Assembly: GCA_004563715.1 (NCBI GenBank)
Contig: SIRX01000176.1
Coordinates: 1 to 39,037 of the forward strand
Direction: 5' to 3'
Source: Actinomycetota bacterium
GTDB taxonomy: Bacteria > Actinomycetota > Rubrobacteria > Rubrobacterales > Rubrobacteraceae
DNA length: 39,037 nt
The notes under the pieces were generated by a model, which was not told where the DNA came from, did not search any database, and saw nothing but the letters and a program-made list of their open reading frames with translations. Positions 3,100 through 25,206 of this stretch are shown in pieces. Every line of letters begins with the position of its first letter. Position 1 is the stretch's first letter. The translations under genes were made by a program, and so were the position numbers.

Positions 3100-3654
3100 C
3101 TACCGGTCCCAGCCGCCGCCCTCACTATCCCCCGGTCCCGGCCAGGACTCGTAGGACGTGCCCTCCGCCGGGACCCACGGCTCGGACCGCGCCGCCGGGG
3201 CCGCGCCGAAGGCCTCCAGCCGGCAGGCCACCTCGTGCAGGGCCTCTTCCGGCAGGTCCTCCTCGACCCTGGGAAAGACCACCCGCTCCTCCAGCCTTAT
3301 GTGCGCCTCCAGCTGCTCGCCGAGATCCCGCAGCGTTTCCCCGCGCACGGTTCCCTGCTCCAGCTCGTCGCTGACCTGCATGGCGAGGCCCCGGATACGG
3401 GCGTGCTGGGTGAGCATCTGCACCACGGGGCCCTCTTCCAGGTCGCCGCCGTGGCGGGCCATCACCGGCAGGAGCACCTCCTCTTCTTTCCTGAAGTGGA
3501 CGCTGGTATCCTCCCGCCAGAACTCCAGGAAAGCCACGGCGGCCTCTTCGGGGGCCACCCCCTCCCCGGAAGCCGACCGCTTGAGCCGGAGGGCGTTGAC
3601 CAGCCCCTGATGATGGTCGTCCGAGAACTCCCTGAGGTCCGGGTGCCGCTTCAT
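3100..3654 (-). CDS. Hemerythrin/HHE domain protein
   Basis: A 184-residue four-helix hemerythrin-like protein. The di-iron ligand set is visible: His14/His15 (DDHH), His53 with Glu57 (HFRKEEE), His84 (QHARIRG), and His118 with Glu122 (HIRLEERVVFP). Proteins of this family bind oxygen or nitric oxide or protect iron centres. The C-terminal 40 residues are low-complexity and probably disordered. It is the second gene of a minus-strand pair: the upstream cupin gene stops three bases before this ATG, and its last codons supply a GAGAGG ribosome site. Two FNR/DNR-like boxes lie ahead of the cupin, so expression under low oxygen or NO is likely. Confidence 0.85.
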   Translation of the reverse strand: MKRHPDLREFSDDHHQGLVNALRLKRSASGEGVAPEEAAVAFLEFWREDTSVHFRKEEEVLLPVMARHGGDLEEGPVVQMLTQHARIRGLAMQVSDELEQGTVRGETLRDLGEQLEAHIRLEERVVFPRVEEDLPEEALHEVACRLEAFGAAPAARSEPWVPAEGTSYESWPGPGDSEGGGWDR

Positions 3655-3657
3655 AAC

Positions 3658-4032
3658 CTACCTCTCCTCTCCGCTCCGTGAGCTTCCTGGCCTGCCGCCG
3701 AGCCGTACCGGGCCCCGCCGGCGGTGGACGGTGAGGTAGGCGAAGTCGTCGGAGGCGCTCCGGGTCGAGCGCGAGGCTCCCCGGGGGACGACGACCAGCG
3801 TACCTTCCGCCAGCGCGTGCTCCTCTCCCTCCACCCTCAAGACCCCCGTCCCCGAGACCCCGAGGATCACCACGTCCACCTCGTCGTTTACGTGCGTCCC
3901 GACACCCTCCCCGGCGGGGAAGCGAACCAGGTTGGCGTTCAGGTCCTCGCTCTCTTCGAGGGTCCATATAACACCCGGCCCGCTGTCTCGTCCGGCGATC
4001 CCCCGTAAGTCCGCTTTGTACCCCCCGGCCAT
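3658..4032 (-). CDS. Small single-domain cupin protein
   Basis: A 124-residue cupin with the two barrel motifs. Motif 1 is reduced (FPAGEGVGTHVNDEVDVVILGVSG, around residues 38-61) and motif 2 is VVVPRGASRST near 81-91. Only one clear metal-type His (GTHVNDE) is present, so metal binding is uncertain. The C-terminus is basic and rich in Arg, Ser and Gly. It is the promoter-proximal gene of the operon with the hemerythrin gene. FNR-like boxes at 4056-4069 and 4084-4097 stand 24 and 52 bases upstream of its start, and motif C lies further out, ahead of the divergent methyltransferase. Function is likely sensing or handling of a small ligand or metal; the substrate is unknown. Confidence 0.7.
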   Translation of the reverse strand: MAGGYKADLRGIAGRDSGPGVIWTLEESEDLNANLVRFPAGEGVGTHVNDEVDVVILGVSGTGVLRVEGEEHALAEGTLVVVPRGASRSTRSASDDFAYLTVHRRRGPVRLGGRPGSSRSGEER

Positions 4033-4083: not shown

Positions 4084-4097
4084 TTGATCCAGATCAC
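4084..4097. promoter_or_regulatory. FNR/DNR-like box (motif B, site 2)
   Basis: TTGAT-CCAG-ATCAC is a near-perfect FNR/NNR-type site; its inner TGATCCAGATCA is a dyad with only the two central bases unpaired. It lies 52 bases upstream of the cupin and 71 bases upstream of the methyltransferase, so it could activate either direction. Confidence 0.55.
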
Positions 4098-4123
4098 TTG
4101 CAAAACCGGACACGCGGACATTT

Positions 4124-4144
4124 TATTACAAACCTGGTGTCAGT
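4124..4144 (-). promoter_or_regulatory. Motif C site 1, ahead of the methyltransferase
   Basis: Read on the minus strand this 21-base element aligns without gaps to the sites at 9550-9570, 9604-9624 and 5478-5498. Shared positions are ACT at the start, AC at positions 7-8, A at 10, and GTA near the end, with a TGTAAT box in three of the four. It ends 23 bases before the methyltransferase start, where a repressor would block transcription or early elongation. The Rrf2 protein encoded at 5650 is the candidate binder. Confidence 0.5.
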
Positions 4145-4167
4145 AAATCCGTGAGAGGGGCAGGGCC

Positions 4168-4995
4168 TTGAGCGAGACTCGGAACGCGTCGGCGGCCGGG
4201 AGGCCCAAAGCAGGCAAAGAACTGGATACGGCGAAGATGCCGGGGCACTGGCTCCTGGCGCGCCTCGGGAAGCGGGTGCTGAGGCCGGGCGGCCTGGAGT
4301 TGACGGAGAAGATGCTGGCGGCCCTGGACGTTCGTCCTTCGGACGCGGTGGTGGAGTTCGCCCCGGGCCTGGGGACGAGGGCCCGCATGACCCTCGCGAA
4401 ATCGCCCGCCTCCTACACCGGGGTTGAGCGGGACGAGACGGCGGCCGAGATGGTTCGCGGCTACCTGAACGGTTCCGAACAGCGATGTCTGGTGGGCAGC
4501 GCGGAGGAGACCGGGATCGCCGACGGGTCGGCCACGGTGGTCTACGGTGAGGCCATGCTCACCATGCAACGGCCGCCGCAGAAGGTCCGGATCGTTGAGG
4601 AGGCGTTCCGGGTCTTGCGGCCCGGCGGCCGCTACGGCATACACGAGTTGTGCCTGGTCCCGGACGACCTGGACGAGAACAAGAAAGAGGAGGTCCAGAA
4701 CGAGCTGTCGGCGGCGATACACGTCGGCGCCCGACCGCTTACGCCCTCCGAGTGGCGGAAGCTGCTGGCTTCCACAGGCTTTGAAGTAACCGCCCAGTCC
4801 CTGGCCCCCATGCACCTGCTGGAGCCCCGGCGTCTGGTCCAGGACGAGGGGCTGGCGGGCGCTCTAAGCTTCGCGCAGAACGTCCTGCGGGACGCCGAGG
4901 CCCGCAAAAGGGTGCTGGCCATGCGCAAGGTTTTCCGTCGGCACCGACAACACCTCTCGGCCATCGCGCTCGTCGGCGTAAAGCCCGGAGAATAG
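4168..4995 (+). CDS. Class I SAM-dependent methyltransferase
   Basis: A 275-residue class I methyltransferase. The SAM-binding glycine loop is VVEFAPGLGTRAR (about residues 60-72), followed by the acidic residue at the end of strand 2 (YTGVERDETAAEM). Strand 4 and its flank appear in GSATVVYGEAMLTMQ, and a LRPGGRYGIHEL segment is typical of small-molecule methyltransferases of the UbiE/Methyltransf_11 type. A TTG start at 4168 is used, preceded by GAGAGGGG. The gene is divergent from the cupin-hemerythrin pair, with FNR-like boxes and motif C between, which places it in a nitrosative or low-oxygen response. The acceptor substrate is not evident. Confidence 0.8.
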   Translation: MSETRNASAAGRPKAGKELDTAKMPGHWLLARLGKRVLRPGGLELTEKMLAALDVRPSDAVVEFAPGLGTRARMTLAKSPASYTGVERDETAAEMVRGYLNGSEQRCLVGSAEETGIADGSATVVYGEAMLTMQRPPQKVRIVEEAFRVLRPGGRYGIHELCLVPDDLDENKKEEVQNELSAAIHVGARPLTPSEWRKLLASTGFEVTAQSLAPMHLLEPRRLVQDEGLAGALSFAQNVLRDAEARKRVLAMRKVFRRHRQHLSAIALVGVKPGE

Positions 4996-4999
4996 AAGA

Positions 5000-5022
5000 G
5001 CACCCGGCCTCATACCGGGCGC
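5000..5022. terminator. Possible bidirectional terminator hairpin
   Basis: Between the converging methyltransferase and second cupin genes, CCCGG (5003-5007) pairs with CCGGG (5015-5019). The stem extends by two more pairs past one mismatch, with a seven-base loop. Only a short, imperfect T run (CCCTTTC) follows on the plus strand, so termination strength is uncertain. Confidence 0.4.
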
Positions 5023-5036
5023 CCTTTCACGCGGAC

Positions 5037-5432
5037 CTAGCCTGCCACCGGCGACCCTTTGCCGCTCGCGATGGTAACCACGCACACGGCGTCCTCAAGG
5101 GCTTCGACCGCGTGCCGCACCCCGGCGTCGCAGGTTAGCACTGTCTTCGGACCGGCCTCGACCGTTCCCTCCTGCGTGGTAAACCGGATGCGCCCCTCGC
5201 GGACGGCCACGGAGATGGGTCCGGGTGCGGAGTGCTCCTCCAGACTGTCGCCGCCCTTCATCACCAGCAACACCACGCTCAAACCCTCTCCCTTGCGCAG
5301 GGTGATGGCGTTCCGCCGCCCCTCCCGCCAGGACTTCTCCCCGCGCAGGCGGTCTACCTCTTCTTCCAGATCAAAGCTCTGCAACAGCCCGTGCATGGGC
5401 CGCTCCGTCTCGGGATGAGGCCGGGAAGACAC
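5037..5432 (-). CDS. Second cupin-domain protein
   Basis: A 131-residue cupin. Barrel motif 1 is around residues 55-80 (LVMKGGDSLEEHSAPGPISVAVREGRI) and motif 2 near 95-110 (KTVLTCDAGVRHAVEA), giving a His in each motif that could bind a metal. Proteins of this shape are often annotated as cupins of unknown function near anaerobic-respiration or NO-response genes. The ATG at 5432 has AAGGAGG just upstream on the minus strand. It is divergent from the Rrf2 regulator, with motif C at 5478-5498 in the shared gap, so it is a likely direct target of that regulator. Confidence 0.7.
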   Translation of the reverse strand: MSSRPHPETERPMHGLLQSFDLEEEVDRLRGEKSWREGRRNAITLRKGEGLSVVLLVMKGGDSLEEHSAPGPISVAVREGRIRFTTQEGTVEAGPKTVLTCDAGVRHAVEALEDAVCVVTIASGKGSPVAG

Positions 5433-5477
5433 GTTTCAACCTCCTTTTTCCGATGCTTGCGACGCTTGCACACCAAT

Positions 5478-5498
5478 ACTATTACAATATTAGTATAA
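5478..5498. promoter_or_regulatory. Motif C site 4, in the cupin/Rrf2 divergent gap
   Basis: This site begins ACTATTAC and ends TAGTATAA. It has the strongest outer symmetry of the four motif C sites: TACTA at 5477-5481 pairs with TAGTA at 5491-5495. It lies 46 bases upstream of the cupin and 152 bases upstream of the Rrf2 start. Fe-S Rrf2 regulators commonly autoregulate, which fits. The rest of the 217-base gap (5433-5649) holds the regulator's untranslated leader and no open frame I would support. Confidence 0.5.
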
Positions 5499-5649
5499 TT
5501 ACTGGCGGGCAAAGGCCTCGGAGATTGACAGACCGCGAAAAACGGTGAAAGAACTGACTATACGGTCCGACCCGGACGTGTATATACGGAAGCGTGTATC
5601 CTTTGTGGATGGGATTTGAGGAATCGGTTACCGGAGAGGATCGGGCGCC

Positions 5650-6066
5650 TTGCGTCTGGAGTTGAGCAGCGAGGGCCGCTACGCTTTGCGGGCCCTGATC
5701 TACCTGGCGCAGCAGGCTGAGGGGCGGGTAACGGCGGACAGGATCTCCGCGGAGGCCAACATCCCGCGGCGGCTGCTCGCCCGCGTGCTCGCCCGGCTCT
5801 CTCGGGCCGGCCTGGTCGAGAGCTACGAGGGACGCGGCGGCGGCTCCCGGCTGGGCCGACCGCCGGAACAGGTAACGCTCCGGGAGGCCGTCGAAGCCGC
5901 CGAGGGACCATTCGAGATCACCCACTGCATCCTGGAGCAGCGGGCCTGCGGCGAAGGTCGGCCCTGCGCCATGCACGACGCCTGGGGAGAGGGTCAGGAG
6001 GCGATCCTCGACTACCTCGCCGGACAGACCCTGGCACAATTCATTATCCGTACCGTCCCCCATTAG
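5650..6066 (+). CDS. Rrf2-family regulator with Fe-S-type cysteines (NsrR/IscR-like)
   Basis: A 138-residue Rrf2-family winged-helix regulator. The N-terminal HTH is LELSSEGRYALRALIYLAQQ through NIPRRLLARVLARLSRAGLV, and the wing contains GRGGGSRLGRPPEQVTL. Three cysteines, Cys93, Cys100 and Cys106, stand in the position that ligates an Fe-S cluster in IscR, NsrR and RsrR; the spacing is C-X6-C-X5-C rather than the C-X5-C-X5-C of typical NsrR. Such proteins sense nitric oxide, redox state or Fe-S supply. The start is TTG at 5650 after GGAGAGGATC. The nearby motif C sites, the hemerythrin gene and the nar operon all favour an NO-sensing role, but the specific ligand is inference. Confidence 0.85.
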   Translation: MRLELSSEGRYALRALIYLAQQAEGRVTADRISAEANIPRRLLARVLARLSRAGLVESYEGRGGGSRLGRPPEQVTLREAVEAAEGPFEITHCILEQRACGEGRPCAMHDAWGEGQEAILDYLAGQTLAQFIIRTVPH

Positions 6067-6128
6067 GGTCTGGACCGCCGTGGGCAACCGCCCGTCGGAG
6101 CCGGATTAGGCAATCTGCGCCACGCGGT

Positions 6129-6144
6129 TGATCAAGATTGATCA
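6129..6144. promoter_or_regulatory. Motif A site 2: TGATCA-N4-TGATCA
   Basis: TGATCAAGATTGATCA, identical over 16 bases to the site at 166-181. It lies 149 bases upstream of the gene at 6294, in a 227-base gap after the Rrf2 gene. The rest of the gap shows no gene. Confidence 0.55.
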
Positions 6145-6293
6145 GGAACCGTCAGGCGGCGACGCTAGAATAATCTCTACGACAGCTCGACACCCCGCCG
6201 ATCCCTCGCATCGGTCTGCCCGCAAAGCGGGCGCAGGGCTCCGTATGCCAGAAGATTCATAGCGCTCGAAAACCCGTACCCCGGAGGTGCACG

Positions 6294-7445
6294 ATGAAGA
6301 ACGAACGGCGAAGACGGCTGGTGGTAGGTTCCGGCATGGCCCTGCTAGCGGCGTTTGTCGCGGCCCGGATCTGGCGCTCACCGCAGGTCCGGTTCGCCCG
6401 GATGAGCGGCTCCTCGATAGCCACGCCCGGGGCGGCGTTGTGGGTCACGGACTTCCTGAACGCCGCGTACTTCCGCCGGCCGCCGGGGCTCAGGCAGGTG
6501 GAAGACCTGCGGCTGGCCTTCAACGTGGTGACGACCTTCTGGCACCGGGGCGGTGGCCGCCGGCTGGCGGCCTCGGACGTGGTCCCGTTCCACCGGGCCT
6601 TCGGGAAGGACCGCTTCCTCGACCGCACCCGTTCCGAGTACGGCACCATGACCCGCGAGCAGGTACTCGAAGGGGCCTCACGGCTGCTGGGAGACTGGTT
6701 CCCCGAGGCGCTGCCGGACGACGACCGCCGGGGCTGGGGCATCGTCTTCGAGACCGAGGAGGACAAACGGCGCTACAACCCGGAGGAGCGGCTACGCGGA
6801 GCGAAGCTCGGGCCGCTCACCCCGCCGGAAGCTCCAGCGAAGGAGCAGATCTGGCACACCTACCCGCCGGTCCCCGTCCCCTCGGCGGCGGGCGTGATCT
6901 CGGCCCTCTCGAAGCCCGAGACCTGGCCGGACTACGCCTCCGAGATCGGCCGGTTCACCCCGGTCCGCTCGACCGGGCTGGCGGGACAGACCTTCGAGAT
7001 AGAAGTCGTGGCGCACCCGACCTCGCGCACGCCCATTTTCACCCGCGGCTATGTCACCATCACCCGGCTCGTCTCACAGGAGGACCCGGCCGAGCTGGAA
7101 GGGTACGTCTCCGAGCTGAACGACTCGCTCGCCAGGTTCGGCCGCGACGAGCCGCCCGCGGTACCGGAGGGAGCGGAGCCGGTGCTCGCCTTCGACCTGA
7201 CCACCCACGAGGGACACTTCATGGGCCGGGCCCGGAACCGGCTGGTGCTCTTCGAGCAGGAGGGACAGGCATACGTGCGGGCGGCCGGAACCTGGGACCC
7301 CTTGCCGTGGCACCTGGACCAGGCCTACCGGCGCGTCGGACACTACGCCCAGCACGCCATCTGGGGAATGGAGAGCCCGCAAGAGAGCATGCTGCACCAG
7401 ATCGCCGAGAAGTTGGAGCAGGCCGTCGTCCGGGACGCTGGCTGA
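6294..7445 (+). CDS. Membrane-anchored protein of unknown function
   Basis: I do not recognise this 383-residue protein. It starts with a basic stretch (MKNERRRRLVVG) and one hydrophobic segment at about residues 9-25, so it is probably anchored in the membrane or carries an uncleaved signal, with the rest outside. A central part around residues 190-260 (PETWPDYASEIGRFTPVRSTGLAGQTFEIEVVAHP) could be a lipid- or ligand-binding SRPBCC-like strand region, but this is weak. The ATG at 6294 has GGAGGTG seven to ten bases upstream. The CrtI-like gene begins one base after its stop, so the pair is surely co-transcribed and probably shares a lipid or isoprenoid substrate. Motif A lies upstream. Confidence 0.65.
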   Translation: MKNERRRRLVVGSGMALLAAFVAARIWRSPQVRFARMSGSSIATPGAALWVTDFLNAAYFRRPPGLRQVEDLRLAFNVVTTFWHRGGGRRLAASDVVPFHRAFGKDRFLDRTRSEYGTMTREQVLEGASRLLGDWFPEALPDDDRRGWGIVFETEEDKRRYNPEERLRGAKLGPLTPPEAPAKEQIWHTYPPVPVPSAAGVISALSKPETWPDYASEIGRFTPVRSTGLAGQTFEIEVVAHPTSRTPIFTRGYVTITRLVSQEDPAELEGYVSELNDSLARFGRDEPPAVPEGAEPVLAFDLTTHEGHFMGRARNRLVLFEQEGQAYVRAAGTWDPLPWHLDQAYRRVGHYAQHAIWGMESPQESMLHQIAEKLEQAVVRDAG

Positions 7446-7446
7446 G

Positions 7447-8976
7447 GTGCCGGCCCTCTCCGGCGACTACGACGCGGTAGTAGTCGGCAGCGGCCCGAAC
7501 GGCCTCTCGGCGGCCATAACGCTCGCCGAGCGGGGCCGTTCGGTCCTGGTGCTGGAGGCTGCGCGGCGGCTGGGAGGGGCCGTGGCCACCGAGGAGCTGA
7601 CGTTGCCCGGCTTCCGCCACGACGTCTTCTCCTCGGTCTACCCGGCGGCGGTCGCCTCGCCCGTCTTCTCCCGGATGCCGCTGGAGCGCCACGGGCTTAC
7701 CTGGGTCCACCCCGGAGTCGCCATGGCCCACCCGCTGCCGGACGGCCGGGTGGCAGCCCTCCACCGGGACCTCGACCGCACGGCGGAGAGCCTGAACGCC
7801 CTCTCGCCCGGCGACGGCGACCGCTGGCGGACCTTCGCCGGCCCGTACCTGAAGGGCTTCGGAGCCGTTCGCGCCACCATGTTCTCTCCGTTCCCGCCGG
7901 TCCTGGGCGGCGCGCGCCTGCTTGCCGCTCTCGGGCTCGGCGGGACGCTGGAGTTCGCCCGACTCATGTTGCTCCCGGCCTCGGCGCTCACCGCGGAGCT
8001 GTTCCGCAGCCCGGGCTCCACCGGCTGGCTCTACGGCACGGCTATGCACGGCGACGTCCCCCCGGAGGGGGCGGGCAGCGCGATCTCCGGCGCCTACCTG
8101 AAGCTCCTCGCCCACGCGGTCGGCTGGCCCAGCCCGCAGGGCGGAGCAGCCAGCCTCTCCGCGGCGCTCGTGGCCTACCTCCACGAGCTGGGCGGCGAGA
8201 CCCGGGTGAACACCCCGGTGGAGACCCTGCTCATATCCGGCGGCCGGGTCCGGGGCGCGGGCACCCCGGCGGGCGCCGTCCGGGCGAAGGCCGTGATCTG
8301 CGCCGTCACGCCTCACGCCCTCCTCAAGCTGGCCGGCGGCTCTCTCCCCGAACAGTACGCGCGGAAGCTAGCCCGCTTCCGCTACGGCCCCCGGACGCTC
8401 AAGGTAGACTGGGCGCTCTCCGGTCCCATCCCGTGGCAGGCCGAAGAGGCCCGCCGGGCCGGGACCATCCACGTCGGCGGCCCCTCCGGAGAGATCTCCG
8501 CCGCCGTGGCGGACGTCGCGGCGGGCCGGACGCCGCAGCGCCCGTTCATGCTCGCCGGGCAGCAGTCCGTGGCCGACCCCTCCCGGGCCCCCGCCGGGAA
8601 GCACACCGCCTGGGCCTACACCCGCGTCCCGGCAACAGACCTCGACCCCGAACGCCACGCCACCCGCATGGAGGAGCAGATAGAACGCTTCGCCCCCGGC
8701 TTCCGCGACCGCATCCTGGCCCGGCACGTCCTCTCGCCAGCCGGCCTTCAGGACAGGGACCGGAACCTCGTCGGTGGCGACGTCGGCGGCGGCAGCTACG
8801 CCCTCGACCAGCTCGTCTTCCGCCCCATCCCCGCGCTCTCCCCCTACCGGACGCCGGTCCGCGGCCTGTACCTGGGCAGCGCCTCGGCCTTCCCCGGAGG
8901 AGCGGTCCACGGAGTGCCCGGCTACGGAGCCGCCCGGACCGCCCTGCTGGAGTCCCGGCTGCGCCGCAACCCCTGA
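7447..8976 (+). CDS. Phytoene desaturase-like FAD-dependent oxidoreductase
   Basis: A 509-residue flavoprotein of the CrtI/NAD(P)-binding Rossmann superfamily. The dinucleotide-binding motif GSGPNGLSAA is at residues 14-23, followed by LEAARRLGGAV at the end of strand 2. The C-terminal family signature LYLGSASAFPGGAVHGVPGYGAA is near residues 475-497. Relatives oxidise, isomerise or saturate polyene and prenyl substrates, and many bacterial members are not carotenoid desaturases. The GTG start is one base after the preceding stop, which indicates coupled expression. No other carotenoid gene (crtB, crtE) is in the window, so a pigment role is unproven. Confidence 0.8.
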   Translation: MPALSGDYDAVVVGSGPNGLSAAITLAERGRSVLVLEAARRLGGAVATEELTLPGFRHDVFSSVYPAAVASPVFSRMPLERHGLTWVHPGVAMAHPLPDGRVAALHRDLDRTAESLNALSPGDGDRWRTFAGPYLKGFGAVRATMFSPFPPVLGGARLLAALGLGGTLEFARLMLLPASALTAELFRSPGSTGWLYGTAMHGDVPPEGAGSAISGAYLKLLAHAVGWPSPQGGAASLSAALVAYLHELGGETRVNTPVETLLISGGRVRGAGTPAGAVRAKAVICAVTPHALLKLAGGSLPEQYARKLARFRYGPRTLKVDWALSGPIPWQAEEARRAGTIHVGGPSGEISAAVADVAAGRTPQRPFMLAGQQSVADPSRAPAGKHTAWAYTRVPATDLDPERHATRMEEQIERFAPGFRDRILARHVLSPAGLQDRDRNLVGGDVGGGSYALDQLVFRPIPALSPYRTPVRGLYLGSASAFPGGAVHGVPGYGAARTALLESRLRRNP

Positions 8977-9036
8977 CCCCACGGCTGGACCGCACACCCG
9001 TCCGGCACGGCTTGGGTAGAGGCAACGAGAGGTCAG

Positions 9037-9175
9037 GTAACGTACGGCATCGTTCACACGGTCCACGCGGTGCCGGACAGGGTATCTGGCAGCCTCAGGG
9101 CTTTACCGTACGTGGAGTACGCGCTGCTGGTGGCGCTCCGGCGTGAGGGGCCCGTATCGTGGCGGCTCGTCTACG
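9037..9175 (+). pseudogene. Possible remnant of a DUF4149/CopD-like gene
   Basis: In the gap after the CrtI-like gene, one frame reads VHTVHAV at about 9051-9071 and then YVEYALLVAL at 9109-9138. These match, in order, VHTLHVL and YVEYGLLVVL of the intact protein encoded at 9658. The DNA at 9109-9137 agrees with 9898-9926 in 26 of 29 positions by eye. The roughly 75 residues that should separate the two motifs are missing. The simplest reading is a decayed, internally deleted paralogue. The evidence is short, so confidence is low. Confidence 0.35.
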
Positions 9176-9505
9176 CTATATCCCGATCACGCCGGTCGTT
9201 ACCAGCGTGATAAAGGCGGAGAGCGCCACCAGCGCCCCTCCCAAGACGCGCCACACCTGCGACCCGTGGGGCGGAAGGAGCAGGGCCGAGAGCCCGGGAA
9301 CGCCGAACAGCGACAGGAAGATGTACGGGGTGTCCAAGTAAACCAGGAGCATCGTCAGAAAAACGGCCAGCGGCACCGACCAGATGAGCGCCGCCGCACC
9401 CCGCTCAAAGCAGGTGAAGGGTTTGATCTCGTACAGGATCAAGGCCACGAAAACCACGAAGATTACCGCCGAGAACAACAGCGCCAGATCAAATACCAAC
9501 TGCAA
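9176..9505 (-). CDS. Small integral membrane protein, unknown function
   Basis: A 109-residue hydrophobic protein with about three to four membrane helices: residues 3-23, 38-58, a short hydrophobic stretch around 62-76, and 87-108. No catalytic motif is seen; a single Cys (FTCFERG) lies in the first loop. It is divergent from the DUF4149/CopD-like gene, and each direction has its own motif C copy (9550-9570 on this side). That suggests co-regulation by the Rrf2 protein and a shared job, perhaps in a membrane response to NO or redox stress. I cannot assign a family. Confidence 0.6.
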   Translation of the reverse strand: MQLVFDLALLFSAVIFVVFVALILYEIKPFTCFERGAAALIWSVPLAVFLTMLLVYLDTPYIFLSLFGVPGLSALLLPPHGSQVWRVLGGALVALSAFITLVTTGVIGI

Positions 9506-9549
9506 GATATGCTCCCTTCCATCGTTCCGTCGACTTCCCGGCCCAACAT

Positions 9550-9570
9550 ACTAGTACAAATCTTGTAATT
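9550..9570. promoter_or_regulatory. Motif C site 2
   Basis: The core TACAA-ATC-TTGTA (9555-9567) is a perfect 5-3-5 dyad, the clearest palindrome among the motif C sites. It is 44 bases upstream of the small membrane gene on the minus strand. The adjoining TTGTAATTATTATC could also form a -10 region, so overlap with a promoter is likely. Confidence 0.55.
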
Positions 9571-9603
9571 ATTATCGCTTCCGGGGTCGTAGCGGCTGGC
9601 TAT

Positions 9604-9624
9604 ACTGGCACGAATCCTGTAATA
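9604..9624. promoter_or_regulatory. Motif C site 3
   Basis: Begins ACTGGCACGAATCC and ends TGTAATA. It is 33 bases upstream of the DUF4149/CopD-like start. Nine bases at its ends (ACTG, TGTAATA apart from spacing) also match site 1, and the gap-free alignment with site 2 keeps ACT, AC, AAT and TGTAAT. Confidence 0.55.
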
Positions 9625-9657
9625 TTCTCATTTGGAGGCGTAGCGGAGGTTTGTACG

Positions 9658-10128
9658 TTGGGTGCGGTGGTACACACGCTACACGTCCTGCTGGCCGGGA
9701 CTTGGCTCGGGGGGGTCGTCTTCACCACGATGGTCGTCTCACCGGCCTTCAAGGCGATGAAGTGGAGCGAGGCCGAGCGGGTCGGCGTGCGTTCCGCCGT
9801 CGGGCGGCAGTACGCGAAGGTGGGCGCGATCAACCTGGTGCTGCTGGCGGTCTTCGCCGTTCTGGACGGCCTGTTCCGGGGCTTCGGTCCGGTTTTCTAC
9901 GTGGAGTACGGGCTTCTGGTGGTGCTGTTCGCGCTGGTGGGTGTGCACGGGGCGTACTTCGGGCGGCGGCTCGCGGAGCTGGCCGATGCCGAGCGCCGGG
10001 CGGAGAGTACAGAGGAGGCGCGGAGGTTCGCCGGGCGGCGTCGCGGGCTTCAGAGAACTTCTTTCAAGACCTCGATGCTCGACCTGGCGGCCAGCGTGGC
10101 GGTCGTGGCGCTGGCCGTAAACGTTTGA
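9658..10128 (+). CDS. DUF4149/CopD-like four-helix membrane protein
   Basis: A 156-residue membrane protein with four predicted helices. The first helix has the family pattern VVHTLHVLLAGTWLGGVVFTT: His6 and His9 followed by a W-x-GG turn. This is shared by CopD-domain and DUF4149 proteins, which may bind copper or heme within the membrane. Helices 2 and 3 are near residues 52-72 and 80-100, and helix 4 is at the C-terminus. The TTG start at 9658 follows GCGGAGGT. Motif C sites stand upstream and the nar operon follows, so it may act in the nitrosative response or serve a cofactor need of anaerobic respiration. The exact role is unknown. Confidence 0.7.
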   Translation: MGAVVHTLHVLLAGTWLGGVVFTTMVVSPAFKAMKWSEAERVGVRSAVGRQYAKVGAINLVLLAVFAVLDGLFRGFGPVFYVEYGLLVVLFALVGVHGAYFGRRLAELADAERRAESTEEARRFAGRRRGLQRTSFKTSMLDLAASVAVVALAVNV

Positions 10129-10232: not shown

Positions 10233-11444
10233 ATGAGCACCGCCAAAGCAGGTCCGCAACCGGGCGCCTATCGCGCCCTCGTGCTGGCGACTCTATCCTT
10301 CGCCCTGTGCTTCTCGGTGTGGGGCCTCATAGCGCCGCTGGCACCCCAGTTCCAGCAGCTCTACGAGCTGTCGAGCACCCAGATCAGCATCGTAATAGCG
10401 ACGCCCGTAATTCTGGGGTCGCTGTTCCGCATCCCTCTGGGGCTGCTCACGGACCGCTTCGGCGGCAGGCTGGTGTTCACGGCGCTAATGCTGGTGGTTA
10501 CCGTACCCACCCTCTTTATAGGGTTCCTGGGTGGCTCTTTCGGCGGGCTGCTGTTCTGGGGGTTCTTTCTGGGCCTCGCGGGCGCCTCGTTCGCCGTTGG
10601 CGTGCCGTTCGTCTCCAAGTGGTTCCCGCCACACATGCAGGGGCTGGCGCTGGGAATCTACGGCATGGGCAACATCGGGACCGCGCTGGCGGCGTACAGC
10701 GCCCCGGCGATAGCCGCTTTTTACGGCTGGCAGTGGGCGTTTTGGGTATTCATCGTGCCGCTCATAGCGATGGCCGCCGTCTTCTGGTTTCTAGGCCAGG
10801 ACGCGCCGAGCAGGGGACCGCGCCCCTCGGTGACGGCGGGGATGGTGTTGTTCAAGGACGAGATCATGCCGTGGGTCCTGAGCCTGTTCTATTTCCTCAC
10901 CTTCGGCGGTTTCGTGGCCCTGGGCATCTACCTGCCGACGCTTCTGGTAGACCTCTTTGGCTTCACACCCACCGGGGCGGGCCTCCGGGCGGCGGGGTTC
11001 GTGATCCTGGCGACGCTGTCGCGGCCGGTGGGCGGCTGGCTCGCCGACCGCATAGGCGGCTCCAGCACGCTCACGATCATCTTCGCGGTGCTGCCGGTCA
11101 TGGCGCTCATCATGGGCTTCCAGCCGGGGATAGTGCTCTTTACCGTCGGGGCGCTCTCCAGCGCGGTTCTGCTGGGGCTCGGCAACGGAGCCGTCTTCAA
11201 GCTGGTCGCCGAGTACTACCCGGCCAAGACCGGTGCGGTTACCGGCGTCGTCGGGGCGGCGGGTGGCCTGGGAGGCTTCTTCCCGCCGCTGGTGCTGGGC
11301 GTGGTCCGGGACGCGACCGGCGCCTACACCATCGGGTTTATCCTGCTGGCCGTGTTCGCCGTGGGGTGCCTGCTGGTCAACATGCTGTACGTCCGGCGAC
11401 ACCCGTCGGGCACGGACGACGCTACAGAAGGGAGAGTGCGATAG
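10233..11444 (+). CDS. narK: Nitrate/nitrite transporter, MFS family
   Basis: A 403-residue major facilitator protein with 12 predicted membrane helices. The signature of the nitrate/nitrite porter family is present (GLALGIYGMGNIGTALAAY, near residues 140-158), along with the first-half loop GLLTDRFGGR and the matching second-half glycine-rich segment GAAGGLGGFFPP. It imports nitrate, by proton symport or in exchange for nitrite, for the reductase encoded just downstream. The ATG at 10233 lies 65 bases after motif A. The last base of its TAG stop is the first base of the narG GTG, so translation is coupled. Whether it is a NarK1-type symporter or NarK2-type antiporter cannot be told by eye. 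Confidence 0.9.
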   Translation: MSTAKAGPQPGAYRALVLATLSFALCFSVWGLIAPLAPQFQQLYELSSTQISIVIATPVILGSLFRIPLGLLTDRFGGRLVFTALMLVVTVPTLFIGFLGGSFGGLLFWGFFLGLAGASFAVGVPFVSKWFPPHMQGLALGIYGMGNIGTALAAYSAPAIAAFYGWQWAFWVFIVPLIAMAAVFWFLGQDAPSRGPRPSVTAGMVLFKDEIMPWVLSLFYFLTFGGFVALGIYLPTLLVDLFGFTPTGAGLRAAGFVILATLSRPVGGWLADRIGGSSTLTIIFAVLPVMALIMGFQPGIVLFTVGALSSAVLLGLGNGAVFKLVAEYYPAKTGAVTGVVGAAGGLGGFFPPLVLGVVRDATGAYTIGFILLAVFAVGCLLVNMLYVRRHPSGTDDATEGRVR

Positions 11445-14400
11445 TGGCACATCCGACCAACCCCCTGCTCAGGGGCCTGCAGTACTTCCGCAAGGGGGAG
11501 GAGAGCTCCGGGGGATGGAGCGAGATCAGCGCCCGCGACCGGGAGTGGGAGTACGCCTACCGCCAGCGCTGGCAGCACGATAAGATCGTGCGCTCCACCC
11601 ACGGCGTGAACTGCACCGGCTCCTGCTCCTGGAAGGTCTACGTCAAGGACGGCATCATCACCTGGGAGTCGCAGCAGACCGACTACCCTTCCAACGGGCC
11701 TGACGCCCCCGAGTACGAGCCGCGCGGCTGTCCCCGCGGGGCTGCGTTCTCCTGGTACACCTACTCCCCGATCCGCATAAAGTACCCTTACGCCCGCGGC
11801 GTCCTCGTGGACCTGTACCGCGAGGCGAAGGCGCAGACCGGCGACCCCTTGGACGCCTGGGCCTCCATCGTCGAAGACCCGGAGAAAGCGAAGCGGTACA
11901 AGGCGGCGCGGGGCAAGGGCGGTCTCGTGCGGGCGGCGTGGCCGGAGGTCGCGGAGATCATGGCCGCAGCCCACGTCTACACCATAAAGAAGTACGGTCC
12001 CGACAGGATCATCGGCTTCTCCCCGATACCGGCGATGAGCATGGCCTCCTACGCCGGCGGCTCGCGCTTTATGTCCCTGATCGGCGGTATCGTCCCGAGC
12101 TTCTACGACTGGTACGCCGACCTGCCGCCGTCCTCGCCCCAGATCTGGGGCGACCAGACCGACGTGCCCGAGTCGGCCGACTGGTGGAACGCCTCGTACC
12201 TGATGATGTGGGGCTCGAACGTGCCCATCACGCGCGCCCCGGACGCCCACTTCATGACCGAGGCCCGCTACAAGGGCCAGAAGACCGTCGTCGTGAGCCC
12301 GGACTACTCCGACCACACCAAGTTCGCCGACCACTGGCTCCCGGTACAGCCCGGCACCGACGGGGCGCTCGCCATGGCGATGGGGCACGTGATCCTCAAG
12401 GAGTTCTTCGTCGAGCGCCAGGTTCCCTACTTCCAGGAGTACGTCCGGAAGTACACCGACCTCCCGATGCTGGTCACGCTCAGAGAACGTGAGGATGGCG
12501 AAGGCCGCGCCTACGTCTCCGACCGCTTTCTGCACGCCGCCGACCTCGGCGCGGAAGGTGAAGCCTCCGAGAACGCCGAGTGGAAGACGGTATTCATGGA
12601 CGCAACCTCCGGAGAACCCGTCGTGCCCAACGGCTCGATGGGCCACCGCTACGGGGAGGAGGGCGTCGGCAAGTGGAACCTGAACCTCGGCGGCGCCGAC
12701 CCGGCGCTCACGCTCTTGGGCTCCCACGACGAGCTGGTCGCGGTGGACCTGCCCCGCTTCGACCTCGGGGACACGGACGAGGGCGGCGTCGCGATGCGCC
12801 GGGGCGTACCCGCAAAGAGGATCGGCGGGCACCTCGTCACCACCGTCTACGACCTGATGCTCGCCCAGTACGGCGTGGGGCGCGAGGGTATGCCGGGCGA
12901 GTGGCCCACCGGTTATGACGACCCGGAGCCCTACACCCCGGCGTGGCAGGAGGAGGCCACCGGCGTGGACGCCGGGCGCTGCACCCGCATAGCGCGCGAG
13001 TTCGCCCGCAACGCCGAGCGGAGCGGGGGGCGGTCCATGATCATCATGGGCGCCGGCACCAACCACTGGTACCACTCGGACCAGATCTACCGCTCCATGC
13101 TCGCCCTGGTACTCCTGTGCGGCTGCCAGGGCGTGAACGGCGGCGGCTGGGCGCACTACGTCGGCCAGGAGAAGGTCCGGCCCATTACCGGCTGGTCGAC
13201 TTTGGCCTTCGCCTTCGACTGGGCCCGTCCGACCCGCCACATGGCCGGCACCGCCCTCTGGTACCTGGCGAGCAGCCAGTGGCGCTACGATACCTTCAAG
13301 GCCGACGAGTTCGCCACGCCCCTCGGGAAGGGCAAGCTCGCCGGCAAGCACCTCGCCGACTGCCTGGCTCTCTCGGCCCGCCTCGGCTGGCTGCCCTCCT
13401 ACCCCAGCTTCAACCGCAACCCGCTGGAGATAACGGCGGAAGCGGAGGCCGAAGGGATCAGCCCCCAGGAGTACGTGGTGCGCGAGCTGAAGGAGGGCCG
13501 GCTGCGCTTCGCCGCCGAGGACCCGGACGCCCCGGAGAACTTCCCACGCGTGCTGACCCTCTGGCGCTGCAACCTGCTCGGCTCCTCCAGCAAAGGCCAC
13601 GAGTTCTTCCTCAAGCACCTGCTCGGCGTGCCGGACGCGGCAGTCCGGTCCGAAGAGTCACCGGAGGAGTTGCGCCCCACGGAGGTCACCTGGCGCGAGA
13701 CCCCGGAAGGCAAGCTGGACCTGCTCACCACCATAGACTTCCGCAAGAACGGCTCATCGCTCTACTCGGACATCGTGCTGCCGACGGCTACCTGGTACGA
13801 GAAGCACGACATCTCCTCCACGGACATGCACCCGTTCGTCCACCCGTTCAACCCGGCCATAACCCCACCCTGGGAGGCCAAGAGCGACTGGGACATCTTC
13901 AACTACGTCGCCGAAGCCTTCTCGGAGCTGGGCAAGAAGCACCTGGGCGTTAGAAAGGACCTCGTCGCCGCGCCGCTGTTGCACGACACGCCGGACGAGA
14001 TCTCCCAGCCTTCCGGCCGGGTGCTGGACTGGAAAAAGGGCGAGTGCGAACCCGTTCCCGGCAAGACGATGCCGAAGCTCGCGGTGATCGAGCGCGACTA
14101 CGGGTCGGTGGCCGAGAAGATGACGGCGATAGGCCCGGCGGTGGAGAACGTCGGGATCGGGGCGAAGGGCAACAACTGGAAACCGGCGCAGGAGATCGAG
14201 TACCTCAAGGGCCACAACGGCACCGCGCGCGGCGGCGTCGCCGACGGGCGGCCCTCCATAAAGCGGGCCGAGCAGGTCTGCGACGCCATACTCGCCCTCT
14301 CCGGCACGACCAACGGCCGCATGTCGGTCGAGGGCTTCAAACAGCTCGAAACCCGCACCGGCGTGAAGCTCGCCGACCTCTCCGAGGAGCGGGCCGAGGA

Positions 14401-15124
14401 GCTTATAACCTTCGCCGACATAACCAGCCAGCCGCGCAAGGTCATCGTCTCCCCCGAGTGGTCCGGCACCGAGAGCCGCACCCGCCGCTACTCGCCGTTC
14501 ACCATAAACGTGGACCGCTCGGTTCCCTGGCGCACGCTCACCGGCCGCCAGCAGTTCTACGTGGACCACGAGTGGATGCTGGAGTACGGCGAGGGCCTGC
14601 CCGCCTATCGCCCGCCGATGCGCATGGCGAAGCACCTCGGCGACATCCGCGAGGGCAACGGCAAGGCGGAGGTCGTGCTCAAGTACCTCACGCCCCACTC
14701 CAAGTGGTCCATCCACTCCGAGTTCCAGGACAACCTGATGATGCTCACCCTGTTCCGGGGCGGGCCGACGATGTGGATGAGCGATAAGGACGCCGAGAAG
14801 ATCGGCGTCAAGGACAACGACTGGATCGAGGCGTACAACCGCAACGGCGTCGTCTCGGCTCGGGCCGTCGTCTCCCACCGCATCCCGGAGGGGACCACGA
14901 TAATGTACCACTCCCAGGACCGACACCTGAACGTGCCGATAAGCGAGGTCTCGGGCACCCGCGGCGGCACCGAAAACTCCCTGACCAAGATCTTCGTGAA
15001 GCCCACGCACATGATCGGGGGCTACGCCCAGTTCTCGTACTTCTTCAACTACTACGGGCCGACCGGAGCCCAGCGGGACGAGCTTACCGTGATCCGCAAG
15101 CGCGAAAGCGAGGTGGTCTACTAA
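11444..15124 (+). CDS. narG: Respiratory nitrate reductase alpha subunit (Mo-bisMGD)
   Basis: A 1226-residue catalytic subunit of membrane-bound nitrate reductase, which reduces nitrate to nitrite at a molybdenum-bisMGD centre on the cytoplasmic face. The FS0 cluster ligands are His53, Cys57, Cys61 and Cys96 (STHGVNCTGSCSW, then RGCPRG). The molybdenum ligand is Asp222 in SFYDWYADLPP. The stretch WGDQTDVPESADWWN and the RAPDAHF segment are family hallmarks, and the length is normal. No twin-arginine signal is seen; the N-terminus is like the E. coli protein, which stays inside. The GTG start shares one base with the narK stop. An apparent long open frame reaching back into narK is a frame artefact. 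Confidence 0.96.
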   Translation: MAHPTNPLLRGLQYFRKGEESSGGWSEISARDREWEYAYRQRWQHDKIVRSTHGVNCTGSCSWKVYVKDGIITWESQQTDYPSNGPDAPEYEPRGCPRGAAFSWYTYSPIRIKYPYARGVLVDLYREAKAQTGDPLDAWASIVEDPEKAKRYKAARGKGGLVRAAWPEVAEIMAAAHVYTIKKYGPDRIIGFSPIPAMSMASYAGGSRFMSLIGGIVPSFYDWYADLPPSSPQIWGDQTDVPESADWWNASYLMMWGSNVPITRAPDAHFMTEARYKGQKTVVVSPDYSDHTKFADHWLPVQPGTDGALAMAMGHVILKEFFVERQVPYFQEYVRKYTDLPMLVTLREREDGEGRAYVSDRFLHAADLGAEGEASENAEWKTVFMDATSGEPVVPNGSMGHRYGEEGVGKWNLNLGGADPALTLLGSHDELVAVDLPRFDLGDTDEGGVAMRRGVPAKRIGGHLVTTVYDLMLAQYGVGREGMPGEWPTGYDDPEPYTPAWQEEATGVDAGRCTRIAREFARNAERSGGRSMIIMGAGTNHWYHSDQIYRSMLALVLLCGCQGVNGGGWAHYVGQEKVRPITGWSTLAFAFDWARPTRHMAGTALWYLASSQWRYDTFKADEFATPLGKGKLAGKHLADCLALSARLGWLPSYPSFNRNPLEITAEAEAEGISPQEYVVRELKEGRLRFAAEDPDAPENFPRVLTLWRCNLLGSSSKGHEFFLKHLLGVPDAAVRSEESPEELRPTEVTWRETPEGKLDLLTTIDFRKNGSSLYSDIVLPTATWYEKHDISSTDMHPFVHPFNPAITPPWEAKSDWDIFNYVAEAFSELGKKHLGVRKDLVAAPLLHDTPDEISQPSGRVLDWKKGECEPVPGKTMPKLAVIERDYGSVAEKMTAIGPAVENVGIGAKGNNWKPAQEIEYLKGHNGTARGGVADGRPSIKRAEQVCDAILALSGTTNGRMSVEGFKQLETRTGVKLADLSEERAEELITFADITSQPRKVIVSPEWSGTESRTRRYSPFTINVDRSVPWRTLTGRQQFYVDHEWMLEYGEGLPAYRPPMRMAKHLGDIREGNGKAEVVLKYLTPHSKWSIHSEFQDNLMMLTLFRGGPTMWMSDKDAEKIGVKDNDWIEAYNRNGVVSARAVVSHRIPEGTTIMYHSQDRHLNVPISEVSGTRGGTENSLTKIFVKPTHMIGGYAQFSYFFNYYGPTGAQRDELTVIRKRESEVVY

Positions 15125-16842
15125 TGCGCGTCAAGGCGCAGGTGGCGATGGTGATGAACCTGGACAAGTGCATCGGGTGCCACACTTGCTCGGTCACCTG
15201 CAAGAACGTCTGGACGAGCCGCGAGGGGACCGAGTACATGTGGTGGAACAACGTCGAGACCAAGCCCGGCGTCGGCTACCCCAAGATGTACGAGGACCAG
15301 GAACGCTGGAAGGGCGGCTGGCAGCTCAAGAACGGCAAGCTGGAGCTGAAGGCCGGCGGCAAGCTGCGCAAGCTCGCCAACATCTTCTTCAACCCTGACC
15401 TGCCCTCCATTGACGACTTCTACGAGCCCTGGACCTACGACTACGAGACCCTGACCAACGCCAAGCCCTCCGAGCACCAGCCGGTAGCCCAGCCGATCTC
15501 GCAGCTCTCCGGCGATCCCCTGGACTTGCAGTGGGGGCCGAACTGGGACGACGACCTGGCCGGCACCCCGGAGACCGGACACCTCGACCCGAACATCCGG
15601 GGCGAGCTGGAGGAGTCGGTCCGCTTCGAGTACGAGAAGGTCTTTATGGCCTACCTGCCGCGCATCTGCGAGCATTGCCTCAACCCCTCGTGCGTGGCCT
15701 CCTGCCCCTCGGGCGCGATGTACAAGCGCGAGGAGGACGGCATCGTCCTCGTGGACCAGGAGCAGTGCCGCGGCTGGCGCTACTGCGTCTCCGGCTGCCC
15801 GTACAAAAAGACCTACTTCAACTGGGAGACCGGCAAGGCCGAGAAGTGCACCCTCTGCTACCCGCGCATCGAGGCCGGACAACCCACCATCTGCTCCGAG
15901 ACCTGCGTGGGGCGCTTGCGTTACATTGGTTTGGTACTTTATGACGCAGACTCGGTAGAGGAAGCCGCCTCGGTGCCAGACGAGAAGGAACTGCTGGAGG
16001 CCCAGCGGCGGGTGTTCATGGACCCCAACGATCCGGAGGTGGTCGAACAGGCGCGCTTCGACGGCATCCCGGAGGACTGGATCCAGGCGGCGCAGCGGTC
16101 CCCGATCTACCCGCTGGCGATAGATTGGGGCATCGCCCTCCCGCTCCACCCGGAGTACCGGACGATGCCGATGGTCTGGTACGTGCCGCCGCTCTCGCCG
16201 GTCATGGGCTTTGTGGAGGGCGAGGGATCGGAGGCCGACCCCGACGACGTATTCCCGGCCATCGACGAGCTGCGGATACCGATCCAGTACCTCGCCAACC
16301 TCCTCTCCGCGGGCGACGAGGAGGTCGTCCGGCGGGTCCTCAAGCGCCTGGCCGCGATGCGCGGCTACATGCGGGAGAAGAACCTCTCCGGCGCGGGCGT
16401 GGAGGAGATAGCCGCCTCCGTCGGCATGGAGCCGCAGGCGATAGAGGACATGTACCGGCTGCTCGCCATCGCCAAGTACGAGGACCGCTACGTCATACCG
16501 CTCGCCCACAAGGAGCTCGCCCACGAGCTCTACGAGCAGCGCGGCTCCCAGGGCCTCGACTTCGCCGCCAGCCGCGCCCCGGCCGCCAACGGCGGCAACG
16601 CCGCCTACTCCTGCAGCCTCGACTTCGCCGGCGGCCCCGGGAGTTGCGCCTCCGGCGAGACCGGCGCTCCGGGCGGAAGCCCGCGCAACGAGGGCTTCTA
16701 CGCCATGAAGGACGAGCTGGAGAAAAAGGCCCGCGCCCTCGGCGGCAAGGTCGCGGCGCCCAACGTCCAGTTCTTCAAGAACAAACAGGACTTCGAGAGC
16801 TTCCACCTCAAGGGACGGGGGCCGCAAGGGGCGGGCGCGTGA
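15124..16842 (+). CDS. narH: Nitrate reductase beta subunit (Fe-S electron transfer)
   Basis: A 572-residue ferredoxin-like subunit that carries electrons from NarI hemes to NarG through one 3Fe-4S and three 4Fe-4S clusters. The first cysteine group is Cys16, Cys19, Cys22 and Cys26 (CIGCHTCSVTC). The others are in CEHCLNPSCVASCP, in CRGWRYCVSGCP, where Trp replaces a ligand as in the 3Fe-4S site, and in CTLCYPRIEAGQPTICSETC. The ATG overlaps the narG TAA by one base (TAATG). The C-terminal 80 residues include a longer Ala/Gly-rich insert (residues about 480-525, SRAPAANGGNAAYSC) than the short proteobacterial forms. Confidence 0.95.
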   Translation: MRVKAQVAMVMNLDKCIGCHTCSVTCKNVWTSREGTEYMWWNNVETKPGVGYPKMYEDQERWKGGWQLKNGKLELKAGGKLRKLANIFFNPDLPSIDDFYEPWTYDYETLTNAKPSEHQPVAQPISQLSGDPLDLQWGPNWDDDLAGTPETGHLDPNIRGELEESVRFEYEKVFMAYLPRICEHCLNPSCVASCPSGAMYKREEDGIVLVDQEQCRGWRYCVSGCPYKKTYFNWETGKAEKCTLCYPRIEAGQPTICSETCVGRLRYIGLVLYDADSVEEAASVPDEKELLEAQRRVFMDPNDPEVVEQARFDGIPEDWIQAAQRSPIYPLAIDWGIALPLHPEYRTMPMVWYVPPLSPVMGFVEGEGSEADPDDVFPAIDELRIPIQYLANLLSAGDEEVVRRVLKRLAAMRGYMREKNLSGAGVEEIAASVGMEPQAIEDMYRLLAIAKYEDRYVIPLAHKELAHELYEQRGSQGLDFAASRAPAANGGNAAYSCSLDFAGGPGSCASGETGAPGGSPRNEGFYAMKDELEKKARALGGKVAAPNVQFFKNKQDFESFHLKGRGPQGAGA

Positions 16843-17471
16843 TCTTCAAGCTGCTCTCGCTGCTGCTGCGCTACCCGGACGACGAGGTTCTCGAAGCCCG
16901 GAGAGAGATAGCGGAGGCCGTGCGCGAGCTACCCGAATCTCCGGCGCGGGACGCCATGATCCGGTTTCTGGACTATTGGGAGAACGAAGACCCGCACCGG
17001 CTACAGGCGACCTACGCCGAAAACTTCGACTTCAAGCGGCGCGGAAACCTCTACCTGACCTACTACCGCCACGGGGACTCGCGGGCGCGCGGCCAGTCTC
17101 TGGCGGACATGAAGGCCGCCTACGCCCGGACGGGCTACCCGCTAGACACCACCGAGCTGCCCGACTACCTGCCGCTGCTGCTGGAGTTCACCGCCGCCCG
17201 GCCGGAGGAGGGGCTCGAGATGCTCGCCGAGCACCGGGCGGCCATAGAGGTCATCCGGCGTTCCCTGTTGCACGATAAGAGCCCCTACGCGCTGCTCATC
17301 GAGGCCCTGGGCGTCTTCCTGCCGGAACTCGATGAGGCGACCGTGGCGGAGATGCAGAAGCTCATAGTCCAGGGACCGCCGGAGGAGAGCGTCGGTCTGG
17401 AGCCGTATTCGGCGGACGCGCCACCGGGCGGACGGCTAAGTAACGTCACTTTTCACGGGAGGAAACGTTGA
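16839..17471 (+). CDS. narJ: Nitrate reductase assembly chaperone
   Basis: A 210-residue NarJ/TorD-like helical chaperone that binds the NarG N-terminus and assists molybdenum cofactor insertion before membrane attachment. The family features are the N-terminal LLSLLLRYPDDEV, the central TYAENFDFKRRGNLYLTYYRHGDSR that marks NarJ, and the LPDYLPLLLEF helix. The GTG start overlaps the narH stop by four bases (GTGA). An in-frame extension to 16125 is only an open reading frame inside narH. Confidence 0.9.
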   Translation: MIFKLLSLLLRYPDDEVLEARREIAEAVRELPESPARDAMIRFLDYWENEDPHRLQATYAENFDFKRRGNLYLTYYRHGDSRARGQSLADMKAAYARTGYPLDTTELPDYLPLLLEFTAARPEEGLEMLAEHRAAIEVIRRSLLHDKSPYALLIEALGVFLPELDEATVAEMQKLIVQGPPEESVGLEPYSADAPPGGRLSNVTFHGRKR

Positions 17472-23191: not shown

Positions 23192-23211
23192 TACTATTAC
23201 TCTATAGTAAT
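23192..23211. promoter_or_regulatory. Palindromic operator ahead of the ArsR gene
   Basis: TACTAT-N6-ATAGTA (23192-23209) overlaps a second dyad ATTACT-N4-AGTAAT (23196-23211). It is 27 bases before the ArsR start and surrounds the likely promoter, in a short AT-rich patch of otherwise GC-rich DNA. ArsR-family repressors usually bind such sites in their own promoters. Its first eight bases after TA also match motif C site 4 (ACTATTAC), so some relation cannot be excluded. Confidence 0.55.
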
Positions 23212-23238
23212 GTGCTTGTAATGAGCAGGAGGGCTGCG

Positions 23239-25123: not shown

Positions 25124-25206
25124 GCCTCCATCATACGCCCGGCGAATTGAACATGTTGCGCCAAAAGTATAGTATTTCGTTTGCAGGCGACCGAGAGGGG
25201 TGGCCG

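Follow-up and report, generated by a model that had tools for sequence, protein, structure and literature searches.

The window, by which we mean the whole 39,037-nucleotide stretch analyzed, is one of the 176 contigs that make up a 3.47-Mb genome. Rubrobacter taiwanensis and Rubrobacteraceae MAGs are among its relatives, which makes the host a Rubrobacter-like actinobacterium. A hemerythrin-cupinA pair on the minus strand is followed by a methyltransferase gene (plus), a second cupin gene, cupinB (minus), the gene of an Rrf2-family regulator (plus) and genes for an uncharacterized protein and a CrtO/CrtI-like oxidase (plus). On the 3' side of the oxidase are the genes of a small membrane protein (minus) and of a DUF4149 membrane protein (plus), and then narK and narGHJI (plus). 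Four candidate operators, S1 to S4, lie among these genes (scores in bits refer to the matrix described below):

3100-3654, minus strand: hemerythrin HHE protein, in a probable operon with cupinA; by the TIGR03652 cut-off it does not count as a RIC
3658-4032, minus strand: cupinA (Cupin_2 protein A), predicted target through S1
4084-4097, no strand assigned: FNR-like box TTGATCCAGATCAC, a consensus match only
4122-4144, no strand assigned: S1, TTTATTACAAACCTGGTGTCAGT, 17.8 bits, between cupinA-hemerythrin (minus) and the methyltransferase (plus)
4168-4995, plus strand: SAM-dependent methyltransferase (Methyltransf_11), predicted target
5037-5432, minus strand: cupinB (Cupin_2, slightly under the Pfam cut-off), divergent from the Rrf2 gene in most relatives
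5478-5500, no strand assigned: S2, ACTATTACAATATTAGTATAATT, 31.6 bits, between cupinB (minus) and Rrf2 (plus), with equivalents in relatives
5650-6066, plus strand: Rrf2-family regulator of 138 aa (Pfam Rrf2, E = 2.4e-36), predicted ligands Cys93, Cys100, Cys106 and His109
9176-9505, minus strand: small membrane protein of no known family, predicted target through S3; a 58.7% homologue has its own site
9550-9572, no strand assigned: S3, ACTAGTACAAATCTTGTAATTAT, 24.4 bits, before the small membrane protein (minus)
9604-9626, no strand assigned: S4, ACTGGCACGAATCCTGTAATATT, 16.1 bits, before the DUF4149 gene (plus)
9658-10128, plus strand: DUF4149 membrane protein (match 4.7e-08), predicted target through S4, co-occurring with Rrf2
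10233-11444, plus strand: NarK-family nitrate/nitrite transporter, first gene of narK-narGHJI, with no Rrf2 site of its own within the window
11504-18244, plus strand: respiratory nitrate reductase (narG-narH-narJ-narI), conserved together with the Rrf2 gene

The original prediction held that four gapless sites close to gene starts form a local regulon with the Rrf2 regulator. The sites exist and align without gaps, 23-mers being the best length, and their closeness to starts was borne out by distances of 23, 45, 44 and 31 bp from S1, S2, S3 and S4 to the nearest start codon. The core at 9555-9567, described as a perfect dyad, reads TACAA-ATC-TTGTA; its 5-bp arms are indeed perfect, but the 3-nt center is non-symmetric. 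Individually, S1 and S4 are weakly symmetric (4 of 11 pairs) and convince mainly through their conservation. S1 is also placed upstream of the divergent cupinA-hemerythrin pair and overlaps a promoter-like -35/-10 pair on the minus strand (4147-4120) that points in the cupinA-hemerythrin direction. Each operator has a start codon 23-45 bp away in at least one direction and S1 covers a candidate promoter, an arrangement with the geometry expected of a repressor. The center of the FNR-like box is approximately 42 bp from that of S1, which would be a class II spacing if transcription begins near S1 and fits a combination of anaerobic activation with derepression.

We trained a palindromic 23-bp matrix by expectation-maximization on the 200 bp upstream of orthologous Rrf2 genes at 11 loci of Rubrobacteraceae relatives, with the window sequence left out of the training set. 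The trained motif was ACTATTAC-N7-GTAATAGT (matrix consensus ACTATTACAAAATTTGTAATAGT), and the four best non-overlapping matches in the 39-kb window were exactly S1 to S4. Nothing in 4 Mb of first-order Markov sequence was as good as S1, S2 or S3; the score of S4 had a p of about 1e-6 in that sequence, or approximately 0.04 expected occurrences per window. In 400 kb of the organism's own genome sampled outside the window, no position reached S1, S2 or S3, one 23-mer reached S4, and the top score (16.8 bits) came from an AT-rich stretch without the AC-N7-GT core. S4 is marginal on its own. Because the sample held no position at the level of S1 and one at that of S4, the sites are not generic AT-rich promoter sequence. 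Further, a search of the promoters of DUF4149 orthologues alone, run without a symmetry constraint, returned the same palindrome (TTACtaatatgGTAATATT) with a log-likelihood of 137, versus 65-74 for six dinucleotide shuffles, indicating that the palindrome is natural rather than an artifact of the model. The AC-N7-GT core is kept in 24/24 sites. A sequence-only covariance model, R1, reported S2 and S3 alone in the own genome at E values up to 10 and was too insensitive to report S1 and S4; as R1 includes the window sites, its result is supporting and not independent.

Several other patterns were considered. A guessed IUPAC pattern missed the sites, and the trained matrix was used instead; ATTAC-N7-GTAAT with up to two mismatches was too loose genome-wide, giving 185 matches versus 82 for a reversed-pattern control. 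A fifth candidate site, ATTACTCTATAGTAAT at 23193, was rejected (N6 spacing, 9.9 bits, position before an ArsR-type gene); this element (23193-23208) is directly 5' of the ArsR-like gene at 23212 and is probably that regulator's own operator. Exact TGATC-N6-GATCA palindromes occur at window positions 166 (near a flavin-reductase-like gene), 6129 (before the gene at 6294) and 10152 (before narK), where base composition predicts about 0.01. The 400-kb own-genome sample holds one more exact copy (L118:8540), and a copy with one mismatch precedes narK of genome G005 (L034:6776). This set looks like a second, possibly Crp/Fnr-type, regulon. The window also encodes a PAS-LuxR-type regulator with a CSWGC motif (25057-25869), whose homologues adjoin nar, DUF4149 or cupin genes in G020 and G004 and which is a possible further nitrate or oxygen regulator.

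Orthologues of the Rrf2 protein (66-76% identity) were found in 13 genomes of the family, including one partial and one recovered via a site match, and most adjoin cupinB, DUF4149 or narK-narGHJI. Most of the orthologous Rrf2 promoters bear sites, as do promoters of cupinB, cupinA, DUF4149 and narK in relatives. The motif thus follows the Rrf2 gene across genomes, one of them from another phylum, as the original prediction required. Counterparts of S2 occupy the cupinB-Rrf2 gap in most Rrf2 loci, and those of S1 occupy the gap between cupinA/hemerythrin and the methyltransferase in genomes G020, G019 and G008 (loci L064, L067 and L068). S4 has counterparts at 12 of the 15 DUF4149 loci outside the window, and S3 has one in G020 alone (L065:7523, 27.9 bits), before the 58.7% homologue of the orphan membrane protein. 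No site was found at the DUF4149 genes of G005 and G026 or at the Rrf2 gene of G003. In genomes G008 and G019, the Rrf2 gene is more than 1 Mb from the regulon and itself has no site, and the regulon keeps sites of 17-36 bits at the hemerythrin-methyltransferase gap, RIC, cupinB and DUF4149; the link between Rrf2 and the sites is therefore more than mere adjacency. Since orthologues of each target bear the site, control of the methyltransferase, a cupin and both membrane-protein genes by one Rrf2 protein is supported.

The relatives also extend the target list. Six relatives have a primary RIC/YtfE gene scoring above the TIGR03652 cut-off, and in each of them a site lies 45-60 bp upstream of it; no site accompanies the second RIC copy of G020, encoded shortly after the first and in the same orientation. 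A site precedes a NO reductase gene (quinol-type, with a NorB cytochrome-c-like domain) in G005 and narK in G003 and G020 (loci L027 and L033), and other site-bearing genes encode a ferredoxin and a Rieske protein (both in G020) and Crp/Fnr-type proteins. The G005 NO reductase gene (L034, approximately 7288-9624) has a frame break near its start that could be an assembly error. Beyond the family, a Chloroflexia MAG encodes a 59% identical Rrf2 protein, with the palindrome ACTATTACGATATTAGTAATAGT (33.8 bits) in the gap that separates its gene from a cupin gene. The cupin gene is followed by one with a distant resemblance to NnrS that scores under the Pfam cut-off. Conservation of ATTAC-N7-GTAAT before the Rrf2 gene and before the members of a coherent gene set spans the Rubrobacteraceae and one Chloroflexia genome.

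In an independent collection, homologues at least 59% identical bear the motif in 7/7 loci. No match of at least 18 bits was obtained at 18 GC-rich loci whose homologues are 28-38% identical and differ in their recognition helices (the AT-rich L093 was left out). In one Acidimicrobiia MAG (L094), narK-like and narG genes lie within a few kb of the gene for a 35% identical Rrf2 protein with Cys3His, but the motif is absent; the association with nar may predate the operator. Loci L101, L105 and L106, from MAGs labelled Latescibacterota, Fibrobacter and Gemmatimonas, carry an identical AATGATTATCAATTGGTATGGAA approximately 35-60 bp before an Rrf2 gene. The shared sequence may be an operator kept within a different Rrf2 group, or the three MAGs may be a single organism binned under separate names.

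Across 38 genomes of the family, and with relatedness ignored in all three tests, DUF4149 is present in 14/14 genomes with the Rrf2 gene and 1/24 without it (p = 1.6e-9), narH in 12/14 against 1/24 (p = 4e-7) and RIC in 6/14 against 0/24 (p = 0.001). Genome G010 has two narH copies and no orthologue of the Rrf2 protein or DUF4149, an instance of nitrate respiration without the regulon. In the own genome, a RIC gene was sought and not found, a NO reductase query run without a positive control gave no match, and nitrate respiration is the sole evident source of NO. The argument for NO is for this reason transferred from the relatives, where the targets form an NO-detoxification and repair regulon of the NsrR kind (RIC in 6/6, NO reductase, narK).

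The regulator itself belongs to the Rrf2 superfamily, scoring 125.2 bits against PF02082 (cut-off 30) and 111.4 against TIGR00738 (cut-off 73.3). The three cysteines of Fe-S type noted in the original prediction are present, with an invariant His109 in addition: Cys93-x6-Cys100-x5-Cys106-x2-His109 is unchanged in 13 orthologues. The NsrR equivalog model gave 57.8 bits against a cut-off of 182 (E. coli NsrR, the control, scored 292.8), and the best NCBIfam equivalog, the IscR model, gave 84.7 against 207.55. Under the curated models, the protein is neither NsrR nor IscR. His107 is the fourth ligand of IscR and is not conserved in NsrR (PMC4432287, PMC8593673). The Asp8 ligand that, with the lack of a His107 equivalent, marks NsrR aligns here with Arg10, and IscR Cys92, Cys98, Cys104 and His107 all align with residues invariant in the orthologues, the first spacing being x6 and not x5.

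The best reading of these observations is an NsrR-like repressor for nitrosative stress and nitrate respiration, with an IscR-type ligand set and an operator of its own. From sequence comparison, control of the site-bearing genes by the Rrf2 protein is very likely. Given such control, NO is quite likely the physiological signal, as the identity of the targets and gene content suggest. That S1 to S4 are operators of the Rrf2 protein encoded among them, and that this protein is an NO-responsive repressor of protective genes, is probable as a whole. In the proposed mechanism, an Rrf2 homodimer carrying an Fe-S cluster on Cys93, Cys100, Cys106 and His109 would bind the palindrome where it overlaps, or sits just downstream of, candidate promoters. 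The bound protein would repress its own gene, cupinB, cupinA-hemerythrin and the genes of the methyltransferase, the small membrane protein and DUF4149, transcription of the latter possibly reading on towards narK. NO from nitrate respiration would then nitrosylate the cluster and release the repressor, allowing the protective genes to be made, and FNR-type regulators at the same promoters may provide anaerobic activation.

Alternatively, the same Rrf2 protein and sites could respond to Fe-S status, iron or oxygen in the manner of IscR, tuning nitrate respiration and cluster repair to cofactor supply. The alignment of the ligand set with that of IscR, which reads Fe-S status (PMC8593673), the AC-N7-GT shared by the operator and the IscR type 1 motif, and the ferredoxin and Rieske protein among the G020 targets are all consistent with such a signal. 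However, the regulon abounds in genes of nitrogen-oxide metabolism (RIC, NO reductase, narK) and not of cluster assembly, and the own genome's two SUF core genes, inspected with 1.5-kb flanks, have no nearby site (best 7.8 bits), which leaves an IscR-like signal unlikely. It is considerably less probable that the palindrome is bound by a different regulator of this regulon, such as a Crp/Fnr-type protein. Genes of this type do adjoin sites in four genomes (G020, G019, G008 and G062), yet at most loci the site adjoins the Rrf2 gene and no Crp-type gene is visible nearby, the motif tracks Rrf2 identity (7/7 loci with homologues of at least 59%, none of at least 18 bits in the 18 with 28-38%), and the TGATC-N6-GATCA palindrome of the window is the better candidate for a Crp/Fnr-type protein. 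We rejected the reading of the sites as sigma-factor -10 regions or chance AT-rich promoter sequence, now scarcely credible despite the promoter-like pair at S1 and the several site arms reading TATACT, near a -10 hexamer, because the motif does not match such sequence equally well (among 4,111 equally AT-rich own-genome 23-mers, one reaches S4 and none S1 to S3) and the symmetric palindrome, with AC-N7-GT in every site, was recovered without a symmetry constraint.

The target list of the relatives resembles a nitric oxide defence and brings in several genes that had no earlier connection with one. A non-exhaustive search of the published literature turned up nothing on an Rrf2/NO regulon in Rubrobacter, and the titles and abstracts of DUF4149 papers that it returned held no link to NO. 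Most descriptions of NsrR-type control come from Proteobacteria, Bacillus, Streptomyces and Thermus. To these the present locus adds a nitrate-linked Rrf2 regulon that is conserved within a deep lineage of actinobacteria, and its operator and ligand set separate working like NsrR from being NsrR. It also makes it possible to test whether an Rrf2 cluster with a histidine ligand can serve as the NO switch, and it attaches a hypothesis of protection from nitrosative stress to the uncharacterized DUF4149 family and an orphan membrane protein. More tentatively, and with somewhat less than even confidence, we propose that a further lineage of Rrf2 NO sensors (Cys3His, ATTAC-N7-GTAAT) took over the role of NsrR in nitrate-respiring Rubrobacterales and some Chloroflexota, its regulon naming DUF4149, the small orphan membrane protein, the methyltransferase and the two cupins as new NO-protection genes.

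Among known systems, NsrR shares the Rrf2 fold, three cluster cysteines and the local, autoregulatory control predicted here. NsrR regulons include dnrN/ytfE, norB, narK and tehB (PMC1274295), and the relatives' targets are similar: RIC/ytfE, NO reductase, narK and a methyltransferase gene comparable to tehB. NsrR targets such as hcp and hmp combine anaerobic activation with release from repression (PMC1274295). Unlike NsrR, the protein has x6/x5 cysteine spacing, an added His and Arg10 for Asp8, and ATTAC-N7-GTAAT differs from both gATGyAT-N5-ATrCATc (PMC1274295) and the Streptomyces 11-1-11 repeat (PMC4432287). IscR has the matching Cys3His positions, and its type 1 consensus, ATASYYGACTRWWWYAGTCRRSTAT (PMC3899308), has the AC-N7-GT core at the same spacing, whereas the flanks and the rest of the half-site differ and Ala44 takes the position of Glu43. 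In Thermus thermophilus, nsrRST encodes NsrR-Th (Rrf2), the ScdA-type NsrS and the cupin NsrT (PMC5748679), likewise an Rrf2 protein of nitrate/nitrite respiration clustered with RIC-type and Cupin_2 proteins. However, NsrR-Th recognizes the palindrome CTTGACCNNGGTCATGG, has Ser at the usual position of the fourth ligand and is both repressor and activator (PMC5748679), and neither DUF4149 nor a methyltransferase is reported for nsrRST. RsrR of Streptomyces venezuelae is likewise an Fe-S Rrf2 protein from an actinobacterium and was initially mistaken for NsrR, but it differs in its redox sensing, 11-3-11 repeat and large NAD(P)H-related regulon (PMC5015018). No NsrR motif described so far (PMC1274295, PMC4432287, PMC5748679) corresponds to the operator, and the Rrf2 protein resembles NsrR in its predicted function and IscR in its ligand set and operator core.
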